Assembly (NCBI RefSeq): GCF_900111745.1
Contig: NZ_FOIJ01000008.1
Coordinates: 310,001 to 374,000 of the forward strand
DNA: 64,000 nt
Direction: 5' to 3'
From: Stigmatella erecta
GTDB lineage: Bacteria; Myxococcota; Myxococcia; Myxococcales; Myxococcaceae
Shown here: piece by piece, positions 36,443 through 40,431 of the stretch
Layout of the letters: each line of letters begins with the position of its first letter
Position numbering within the stretch: position 1 is the first letter of the stretch
Made by a program: the position numbers and the translations under genes
Notes under the pieces: model-generated
Databases searched by the model: none
Seen by the model: the letters and a program-made list of their open reading frames with translations, nothing else
What the model was told of the DNA's origin: nothing

Positions 36443-38071
36443 TCAGAGCTTCACATCCGCCAGCAAGGTGGGCGCGATGCGCAGCAGGCTGATGGTGGCC
36501 GAGCGGCCCATGAAGCCGCGGGCCTCCTCGATGGCCTCGGTGAGGGTGTCGGTCCGGTCCCAGCCGAGCAGGGCGGGCACGTGGTTGTTCTCCGCGCCGG
36601 CGACGATGACCTTGCCCACGTGCTGGCGGCCGTTCTCGCCCCAGTACCACATGTAGAAGGGGTGCACGCCGTGGTAGGCATTGCCCTTGCGGTACAGGTG
36701 CACGTAGCTGGGGTTCTCCGCGAACTCGCGCTCGTACTTGTGCTGCAGCTTCATCGAGTCCCGCGTCTCCGGGAGGATGCGGTTGAAGAACTCGATGTAG
36801 CTGGGGTGGTGCTCGGGATCGAACTCGTCGTAGGCCGGGTGCAAGAGGATGAGCACGCCGCCCTTCTTCACCAGCGGAATGCCGCGGTTGAGGTTGAAGA
36901 AGTAGCCCAGCCCCATCACCTGCACGAGCAGCGGGTTGAGGATGGAGTTGACGCTGTAGGGCGAGATGAACGGGATGGGGAAGATGACGATGTCGCTCTG
37001 CCCCTGCACCGGCACCGAGTACTGCTTCCAGCTCGTCTCCAGCGTCTTGACGTGCACGGGCTCGGTGGCCCCGGCGTACACGCCCGTGACGTCATAGGGC
37101 GCGGGGATGGCGTTGAGCACCTTGCGCGCCGCCGCGCGCGGCATCTTCCCCAGCGCGAAGCGCATCGCCTGGAACTTCAGCCGGTCCGCCTCGGTGTAGT
37201 CCTCTTCCTTCTTGGCCAGGAAGTCCGTGGGGGCGCCGAACATGCGGTTGTTCAGCGTGGTCTCGATGTGGAAGACCTTCAGGTGCTTGTCGATGACCGT
37301 GCCGATGCGCGAGTTGCTCTTGTAGAGCGCGCTCGCCTTGGGCTCCATGTAGCTGTCGGAGTCCCGGATGGTCTTCGGGTTGTGGTGCGCCTGGAGCGAG
37401 GCGTAGTTCGTCACGCCGGTGCCCATGGACTTGTGCCCGCCGTTCATGGGCACGAAGTTCACGTTCACGTAGACGATGAGGTCGCTCTCGGCCACGCGCC
37501 GGTTGACGGCCACCACCTCGTTGTGGGCGGTGCGCTCCAGCTCGGTGATGCCGTCGGGGTCCTCGGCGTCGTGGTTGTAGTAGCGGTCCGGGTAGTAGGC
37601 GTCGAAGATCTTCGTGCCCACCATGCGCCGCATCTCGCCCTCGGTCATGCGGCGGTGCAGGGCGTTGGCGATGAGCAGGTGGATGTCGTCCACGCCGCTG
37701 TCGGCCGCCAGCTCCAGGACGATCTCCAGGATGCTCTGCCGCACGTCCGGGGTGACCATGGGCGGCAGCGGCACCGAGATGTCGTCGATGACGCAGGTGA
37801 GCTTCATGCCCGGGCGCAGCAGGGCGTGCAGCGGGTCCATGCCCTCCGGGTGGTTGATGGCCCAGCGGATGGCGGCCTTGACGTTGGGCACCCCCTCCAT
37901 GGGGGGGCGGGGGAAGATGACCCGCGTGCCGACCGGCAGGTCCTCGAGCAGGAAGTTTTCCCCGGAGAACAGGGCGCGCGGGGGGCTGCCCTTCTCGGTG
38001 ATGACGACCTGGCTTTCCTCGTCGTAGAGCTTCTGGAGCGTCTTGATGGGGCGCATGGGAGGGCTTTTCAC
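36443..38071 (-). CDS. LarA-like (DUF2088, lactate racemase fold) protein in the ether-lipid cluster
   Basis: The 542-residue protein carries LarA-fold motifs: DDISVPLPP (the Asp-containing substrate motif), NALHRRMTEGEMRRMVG (compare HR...EMVG) and GHKSMGTGVTNY. LarA uses a nickel-pincer nucleotide to racemise lactate and relatives; no Lar accessory genes (larB, C, E) are visible here. The GTG at 38071 overlaps the HAD gene by 4 bases; ATG at 38056 is the alternative. Its location inside the ether-lipid operon suggests a hydroxyacid-type intermediate, but this is inference. The family name is secure; its substrate is unknown. Confidence 0.75.
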   Translation of the reverse strand: MKSPPMRPIKTLQKLYDEESQVVITEKGSPPRALFSGENFLLEDLPVGTRVIFPRPPMEGVPNVKAAIRWAINHPEGMDPLHALLRPGMKLTCVIDDISVPLPPMVTPDVRQSILEIVLELAADSGVDDIHLLIANALHRRMTEGEMRRMVGTKIFDAYYPDRYYNHDAEDPDGITELERTAHNEVVAVNRRVAESDLIVYVNVNFVPMNGGHKSMGTGVTNYASLQAHHNPKTIRDSDSYMEPKASALYKSNSRIGTVIDKHLKVFHIETTLNNRMFGAPTDFLAKKEEDYTEADRLKFQAMRFALGKMPRAAARKVLNAIPAPYDVTGVYAGATEPVHVKTLETSWKQYSVPVQGQSDIVIFPIPFISPYSVNSILNPLLVQVMGLGYFFNLNRGIPLVKKGGVLILLHPAYDEFDPEHHPSYIEFFNRILPETRDSMKLQHKYEREFAENPSYVHLYRKGNAYHGVHPFYMWYWGENGRQHVGKVIVAGAENNHVPALLGWDRTDTLTEAIEEARGFMGRSATISLLRIAPTLLADVKL

Positions 38072-39774: not shown

Positions 39775-40002
39775 GTGCGGCTGTTTTCAAAACCAAATAC
39801 ATCACGGCGGCAAGGGAAAATCCGGCCGGGGAATTACTTGCGCGCGGGCGGAAACCCGAGGATCAACGAGGCTCGTGCCGAGGGGGCCGATGCGATTCGG
39901 AGGTCCGTTCTCCGAGGGAAAAACGCACGGGAGGGCTGTTTTTCGGCCTCGGGCGTGCTACTACGCCCCCACGGCTCTAGATTGTTCATGCCGTAATCAA
40001 CG

Positions 40003-40018
40003 TCCCCTTCGGAGGGGA
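40003..40018 (+). promoter_or_regulatory. Hairpin overlapping the ribosome-binding site of the SWIB gene
   Basis: TCCCCT and AGGGGA form a perfect 6-bp stem with a TCGG loop. Its 3' arm overlaps the Shine-Dalgarno sequence GGAGG (40016-40020) that precedes the ATG at 40033. Folding would hide the ribosome site, a layout seen in thermosensors and translational repressors. Structure is read directly; function is inference. Confidence 0.4.
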
Positions 40019-40032
40019 GGAGACAGAACCGA

Positions 40033-40110
40033 ATGGCCGCAAAGAAGGCTGCTGCGAAGAAGACCGCTGCGAAGAAGGCTGCTCCCGCCGCGAAGAAGGC
40101 CGCCGGCGCC
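40033..40110 (+). repeat. Low-complexity GCTGC-GAAGAAG repeats coding the Lys/Ala tail
   Basis: The first 78 bases of the SWIB gene are built from alternating blocks like GCTGCGAAGAAG and GCCGCGAAGAAG. They encode the AAKK repeats and form a clear low-complexity tract. They are a coding repeat, not an independent element. Confidence 0.7.
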
Positions 40111-40353
40111 AAGAAGCCGAACGCCGCGTTCATGAAGGAGTTCAACCCCACGCCCGAACTCGCCGCCGTCGTCGGGGACAAGCCGCTTCCTCGCACCGCG
40201 GTCATCAAGAAGCTGTGGGACTACTTCAAGAAGAACGGTCTCAACCAGGGCCAGCTCATCAACCTGGATGACAACCTGAAGAAGGTCTACGGCAACAAGA
40301 AGCAGATCAAGATGACCGAGGTCGCCGGCGCCTTCAAGCACCTGAAGGAGTAG
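40033..40353 (+). CDS. SWIB/MDM2-domain protein with Lys/Ala-rich histone-H1-like tail
   Basis: The 106-residue protein has a 30-residue Lys/Ala tail (repeats of AAKK) similar to bacterial histone-H1-like proteins and a SWIB domain in residues 34-105 (LAAVVGDKPLPRTAVIKKLWDYFKKNGL, then the LDDNLKKVYG region). SWIB is common in eukaryotic chromatin remodelers; in bacteria it occurs in chlamydiae and some other groups. DNA or nucleoid binding is likely, from the basic tail. The Shine-Dalgarno site lies in a hairpin, and a good terminator follows the gene, so it is monocistronic. Confidence 0.9.
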   Translation: MAAKKAAAKKTAAKKAAPAAKKAAGAKKPNAAFMKEFNPTPELAAVVGDKPLPRTAVIKKLWDYFKKNGLNQGQLINLDDNLKKVYGNKKQIKMTEVAGAFKHLKE

Positions 40354-40397
40354 CCCGCTTCCGCAGCGGGTCCTTCTCGAGGGCACGCGGCATTCCG

Positions 40398-40431
40398 AGG
40401 GCTCGCCGGGTACGGCGGGCCCTCTTCTTTT
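40398..40431 (+). terminator. Rho-independent terminator after the SWIB gene
   Basis: AGGGCTCGCCG and CGGCGGGCCCT form an 11-bp stem with one G-T wobble and a GGTA loop, followed by CTTCTTTT. The strong GC stem and the T-rich tail give a plausible intrinsic terminator 45 bases after the SWIB stop. It separates the gene from treY. Confidence 0.85.

Follow-up and report, generated by a model that had tools for sequence, protein, structure and literature searches.

The locus at the 5' end of a small SWIB gene in Stigmatella erecta raises the question of what kind of protein the gene encodes, and of what the hairpin that lies against its ribosome-binding site contributes to expression. The window analysed is a whole stretch of 64,000 nucleotides (positions 310,001 to 374,000 of contig NZ_FOIJ01000008.1), and positions are given in window coordinates. 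The features of the locus, referred to here as swib, are listed in Table 1.

Table 1. Features of the swib locus and what each is based on.
Feature	Position	Strand	Basis
A-tract before the promoter, possible UP element	39919..39923	+	putative function
CTGTTTTTC, -35-like element (conserved T-tract)	39936..39944	+	leader comparison
Extended -10 box TGC-TACTAC	39956..39964	+	leader comparison
SL1, hairpin ACGGC...GCCGT at the predicted mRNA 5' end	39971..39994	+	covariation; RNAalifold
SL2, hairpin TCCCCT-TCGG-AGGGGA (that of the preliminary description), flush with the Shine-Dalgarno site	40003..40018	+	constant arms, variable loop
Shine-Dalgarno site AGGAG, 10 nt 5' of the ATG	40018..40022	+	sequence
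swib gene, ATG start, 106 aa and stop	40033..40353	+	ORF list
Lys/Ala tail, residues 1-27	40033..40113	+	composition; low confidence there in the structure model
SWIB/MDM2 domain, residues 35-100	40135..40332	+	Pfam; Foldseek to 1v31 and 1uhr
Terminator-like stem-loop, then a T-rich tail, before treY	40397..40424	+	one found, shuffles give 1.4 (weak)

The Pfam profile PF02201 matches the SWIB/MDM2 domain with 61.1 bits (8.4e-17) against a curated cut-off of 25. The tail that precedes it has 14 Ala and 9 Lys among its 27 residues, and the whole protein has a computed mass of 11.5 kDa and a computed pI of 10.2. An AlphaFold2 model made from an alignment of 48 sequences, the window and its relatives (A6), has a mean pLDDT of 74.1 and a pTM of 0.54, with values of 76-89 for the blocks of the domain and of 46-56 for those that span residues 1-30 and so include the tail. 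Foldseek places this model closest to 1v31 (2.5e-5) and 1uhr (4.8e-5), followed by BAF/RSC subunits and MDM2. Yeast UAF30 is the only solved chain that matches by sequence at E <= 0.01 (E 0.0011). Across 54 rows from the family the tail has a median length of 24 aa and is 38% K/R and 38% A. As in H1-motif SWIB proteins of the SWIB-4 type, a Lys/Ala-rich, H1-like stretch adjoins the SWIB domain, a likeness judged from composition.

The open reading frame, the Pfam match and the composition confirm the gene for a Lys/Ala tail linked to a SWIB domain that the preliminary description had recognised. The reading of its product as a nucleoid protein, also made there, is the most likely one from the basic tail, the modelled SWIB fold and the parallels with chloroplast SWIB-4 and Waddlia Wcw_0377; it is a plausible reading, and of a kind already known. 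The term eukaryote-like was an overstatement, stand-alone bacterial SWIB proteins being common in public records. The proposed monocistronic organisation is likely, because the upstream gene is on the opposite strand and a weak terminator-like stem stands before the downstream treY.

No other SWIB gene is present in the same genome. Of 96 genomes of the family, 94 yielded a SWIB gene, among them all 83 of good quality (>=90% complete and <=5% contaminated); the two in which none was found are G008 and G125. In a wider sample 60 of 78 relatives carry SWIB, with none in the 10 genomes of family f5 of the same order. Judged from these genome sequences, swib is a core gene of this myxobacterial family. 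The relatives named in the records include Hyalangium, Corallococcus, Myxococcus, Pyxidicoccus and Citreicoccus. At many loci the neighbours of swib are genes for an epimerase and a HAD phosphatase, upstream on the other strand, and treY downstream; some loci keep just part of this set. At L032, L093 and L098 no epimerase turned up next to swib, in a comparison limited by short loci. Further upstream, the minus strand of the window encodes an NPN-dependent hydroxyacid isomerase of the LarAH14/15/16 family (36443-38071; 835.6 bits against the NCBIfam cut-off of 740). One contig labelled Comamonas sp. KCTC 72670 (L047) carries swib, the leader and myxobacterial neighbours (HAD phosphatase 85%, epimerase 71% and treY 75% identity), and this label is probably wrong.

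Within the genus, this genome and three others (L095-L097) share the same protein sequence and a 70-nt leader without any difference; the swib gene differs among them by 0-7 silent changes, and the 130 nt upstream of the leader by 4-15 changes. Within the family, the C-terminal half of the SWIB domain (domain at 40135-40332 in the window) occurs in two forms at the same locus. The usual form scores about 85-110 bits to Pfam and the divergent form about 60-80 bits. The divergent form has a shortened loop and a TEV..AF.HLK-type ending in genera g1, g15 and g16, and is without the shortened loop in g20; it was seen at L093, L094, L099-L102, L107, L109, L122 and L142-L144.

Tails were surveyed in 61 loci picked by pattern, a non-exhaustive sample. 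A Lys/Ala-type tail before SWIB is also present in Sphaerotilus/Leptothrix, in a Burkholderiaceae MAG and in Chitinophagaceae contigs, and the tail-plus-SWIB plan is therefore widespread rather than confined to this genome. Little or no tail is present in Verrucomicrobia SWIB copies and in most of the Elusimicrobia and Planctomycetota copies seen. Phage sequences gave no match to the SWIB protein. There are 35 plasmid records that match it, and among the 15 matches listed all are below 60% identity and none covers 80% of the protein.

The stem of SL2 pairs TCCCCT (40003-40008) with AGGGGA (40013-40018) around a TCGG loop, at -8.5 kcal/mol at 37 C. Folding of 39990-40060 in this genome alone puts the hairpin near chance (z-score -0.13), and the hairpin pattern has 8 matches in the genome against 5 for a reversed control and 4 in the window against 1.8 in shuffles. 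These single-genome tests do not separate SL2 from chance, and it is accepted as real because it is conserved between genomes. In the leaders of the fetched loci (at least 110) the hairpin GTCCCC...GGGGAGGAGAC recurs with differing loops, and in most leaders compared a second hairpin, SL1, lies 6-10 nt upstream of SL2. The preliminary description had proposed that its hairpin be given up if it were not conserved among orthologues; it is kept across related genomes.

MAFFT alignments (A1-A3) misplaced SL1, and hence seven hand-picked leaders (A4) were used to seed a model, R1, which gave 50 matches over 59 sources. In the genome of the window R1 gave 10 matches, with E as high as 9, of which swib was the best, at E 0.1. 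A second model, R2, was built from the R1 matches (A5) and gave 55 matches over 66 sources. These 55 rows served as the covariation set; they are related and fitted to the structure, and the shuffle counts that follow are not probabilities. Paired cells make up 92.8%, against 91.1 (sd 0.4) when shuffled and 49-81% when slid, double-change cells number 19 against 10.6 (sd 2.1), and the covariation score is 0.134 against 0.104 (sd 0.006), with none of 500 shuffles reaching any of these values. The number of pairs with a double change (3 against 2.0, with 36 of 500 shuffles as high) and that of further pair types (7 against 7.0, 476 of 500) are unexceptional. RNAalifold predicts both hairpins from the same alignment, with 9 pairs.

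Almost all of the covariation is in SL1, where pair 4 is CG in 39 rows, UA in 9, UG in 5, another combination in 1 and a gap in 1. SL2 has a single double-change cell. Its CCCC/GGGG arms are kept in nearly all 55 rows with a variable loop of 4-17 nt in the fitted alignment, in which six rows (g16 and L103) read as 0; the loop of SL1 ranges from 6 to 30 nt with its arms kept. As SL2 is nearly without covariation, its support is the combination of constant arms and a changing loop. The conservation of these arms has a second possible cause, since the GGGG arm adjoins the Shine-Dalgarno site. On this comparative evidence, SL1 and SL2 are conserved in the family as a two-hairpin leader.

Upstream of the hairpins, one set of 55 leaders, out of 58 distinct ones, carries both the CTGTTTTTC T-tract and the extended -10 TGNTANNNN by regular expression. 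The spacing from the TG of the T-tract to the TGN of the -10 is 19 or 20 nt in these 55, the expression failing in the other 3. By eye, an A-rich tract precedes the T-tract in most of 36 upstream regions and is weak in L032 and L033. A general sigma-70 scan found no promoter at the extended -10 site of swib. SL1 starts 6-12 nt (median 9) 3' of the -10 in 55 of the 58 leaders, a distance defined by regular expression that misses L002, L103 and L105. Bacterial transcripts usually begin about 7 nt after the -10 box. The 5' end of the mRNA would therefore coincide with SL1 or lie very close to it, and the start of the swib transcript is predicted near 39971. The region also contains an imperfect inverted repeat (39912-39952), with CCGAGG at 39912-39917, CCTCGG at 39947-39952 and the A- and T-tracts inside, which spans the -35-like T-tract; it could be an operator, or simply the UP element and -35.

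The R2 model includes the window and its relatives, so that their E-values are by construction, and it is therefore informative through the absence of other copies. In the genome of the window the single match at E <= 0.01 is 39970-40023, at swib. The 22-nt stretch from SL2 to the Shine-Dalgarno site has one other copy in this genome at <=3 mismatches, and that copy has 3. Across the family R2 matches 75 of 92 genomes, 70 of the 79 of good quality and 21 of 26 genera, in a search with stricter filters by which weak matches may be lost. When two listings were compared, 74 of 76 matches were beside swib, the exceptions being one at a contig end (G030:C344) and one with E 0.0025 (G032:C22), neither of them beside a listed swib place. 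The pairing of the leader with swib is thus near-exclusive. Second, divergent SWIB genes are present at L104 (G011) and L108 (G040), with no match to the two-hairpin leader at E 0.01.

The 17 genomes missed by R2 comprise all four of g12, five of the six of g16, all three of g20, and G007, G008, G009, G079 and G125. By eye, a hairpin can still be made out 5' of the Shine-Dalgarno site in g12 and G009, and the g20 leaders have no SL2-like CCCC/GGGG stem. Among the 66 sources, the 11 without an R2 match are L006, L014, L130 (g12), L107, L109, L122 (g20), L144 (g16), L013, L029, L121 (f7) and L062. A hairpin of another kind, in which the G-rich arm precedes the C-rich one (GGGGAG...CTCCCC), is present a few bases 5' of the swib Shine-Dalgarno site in L013, L029, L120 and L121 (f7) and in the MAG contig L062; in some rows the T-tract that precedes it can pair with an A-rich stretch after the Shine-Dalgarno site. 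Rfam 15 has no match in the window at gathering score and none at E <= 1 for 39900-40100, and the two-hairpin leader is covered by no Rfam family.

The preliminary description had the hairpin covering part of the Shine-Dalgarno site. There is an overlap, which is at the edge only, of 1 base of AGGAG (40018-40022) or 3 of GGAGG (40016-40020); the core GGAG, which most rows of alignment A7 retain, is outside, since the conserved stem ends at the G-run and GGAG lies 3' of it in most rows. In 43 leaders the mean unpaired probability of GGAG is 0.53, against 0.44 with shuffled upstream parts, being higher in 30 and less accessible than the shuffles in 13. Over the same leaders the C-run pairs with the G-run of the stem at a mean of 0.68 and with the Shine-Dalgarno site at 0.06, with outliers for the latter of 0.37 in L099 and 0.40 in L016. 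All rows are kept in these means, including L015 and L140, with a mis-anchored C-run, L016, with a shifted Shine-Dalgarno site, and L020 and L021, whose folds differ (0.02 and 0.16 for the C-run with the stem). In g16 both hairpins are kept with the Shine-Dalgarno site about 40 nt further downstream, a spacing that argues against its occlusion as a conserved role. SL2, as folded from the sequences, would mostly not hide the ribosome site. AGGAG in the window has an accessibility of 0.40 at 15 C and of 0.51 at 42 C, which is not a marked opening over the growth range, and the site is not inside the conserved helix. The temperature-gated occlusion earlier suggested is therefore not upheld.

A core basic protein, a conserved promoter, a 5' hairpin and a mostly exposed Shine-Dalgarno site are together what would be expected for a stable, steadily translated mRNA. 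The explanation preferred, to which about an even chance is given, is that the leader is a stabiliser and presenter of the ompA type on the mRNA of a nucleoid-associated protein. The swib mRNA would start at, or a few bases from, SL1, which would lock the 5' end in a hairpin and so hinder decay that depends on that end. SL2 would tie up the C-rich stretch by the ribosome site and leave GGAG free for the ribosome. The outcome would be steady, high expression, like that from the E. coli ompA leader. The Lys/Ala tail of the protein may bind DNA of any sequence. As in chloroplast SWIB-4, a folded module for contacts with DNA or with a partner may be contributed by the SWIB domain. Both 5'-terminal stem-loops and the ompA leader are described as mRNA stabilisers (PMC7509114, PMC3997798). 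A stem too near the Shine-Dalgarno site lowered the stability of a B. subtilis mRNA in the account of PMC7509114, which argues against SL2 as a stabiliser.

Autogenous control is a lesser possibility. In the manner of ribosomal-protein leaders, SL1 or SL2 would be bound by the basic SWIB protein itself, or by some other factor, and surplus protein would thereby shut the ribosome out of the swib mRNA. The dedication of the leader to one gene is in keeping with this, as are the largely conserved unpaired linker AACG before SL2 and the lack of a leader match at the additional SWIB genes of G011 and G040. However, neither the length nor the sequence of the loops is constant in SL1 or SL2, which makes a protein that reads the loops unlikely, and in g16 the Shine-Dalgarno site is far from SL2. 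The fuller form, in which a nucleoid protein with an H1 tail and a SWIB domain controls its own synthesis through the family-wide leader of its mRNA, with its level following free DNA, is unlikely. It is also quite unlikely that a strong Shine-Dalgarno site and a promoter are all that is conserved, with incidental pairing; the SL2 arms do hardly vary, but the CCCC arm and SL1 belong to no element of either kind, SL1 has double changes, and the covariation score of the leader is reached by none of the shuffles, though the relatedness of the rows inflates this. It is improbable that the inverted repeats act as DNA, in the form of an operator for a transcription factor: they are just 3' of the promoter, but a dimer site of fixed spacing would not tolerate loops that vary so widely between kept arms, and SL1 accepts GU pairs. 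Most improbable is an RNA thermometer or fold switch in which the C-run swaps with temperature between the GGGG arm, leaving the Shine-Dalgarno site free, and the site itself; the minimum-energy fold of an isolated 23-mer does change between 30 and 37 C, the alternative fold that hides the site being the minimum at 20 and 30 C, and that of 39990-40060 hides the site, but on average the C-run strongly prefers the stem, the site in the window opens little with temperature, and the GTC/GAC ends required by the alternative fold are not retained in g8, g12 and others.

The literature searched contained no study of this SWIB protein in myxobacteria. The swib gene is a direct test case, since it encodes a bacterial tail-plus-SWIB protein in a group that has cultivable laboratory strains, and since any influence of its conserved leader on mRNA lifetime and on translation is measurable. 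Should the protein compact DNA, this would bear on the relation of the chloroplast SWIB-4 plan to the bacterial ones.

For the preferred reading of the leader as a stabiliser, the nearest known system is the 5' untranslated region of E. coli ompA. That region has a 5'-terminal stem-loop, the place predicted for SL1, and a ribosome site, and is an mRNA stabiliser (PMC7509114, PMC3997798). The sequences are different and the swib leader has a second hairpin, flush with the Shine-Dalgarno site. For the protein, SWIB domains occur as tails of topoisomerases, as described for C. trachomatis TopA (PMC12445093). Residues 2-103 of the swib product, including the Lys/Ala tail, match the C-terminal end of topoisomerase III PRK14724 (NCBIfam) at 66.4 bits, far under the family cut-off of 1088 bits, and the swib product is stand-alone. 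Small bacterial SWIB proteins are also represented by Waddlia chondrophila Wcw_0377, for which ChIP-seq gave 1920 peaks along the genome, and by the chlamydial stand-alone CT460 (PMC6426960). These are described there as a SWIB domain alone, and as chlamydial proteins also detected in the host nucleus. Chloroplast SWIB-4 of Spinacia and Arabidopsis is reported to compact nucleoids and to complement an E. coli hns mutant (Melonek et al. 2012, as given in the review PMC4154389). Compared by description rather than by sequence, it differs in being an organelle protein from a plant gene, whereas swib is bacterial, a core gene, and the Lys/Ala tail of its product is short. The likeness is in size and charge, at 12 kDa and pI 10 according to the same review against the values computed for swib, and in a SWIB domain that adjoins a histone-H1 motif.
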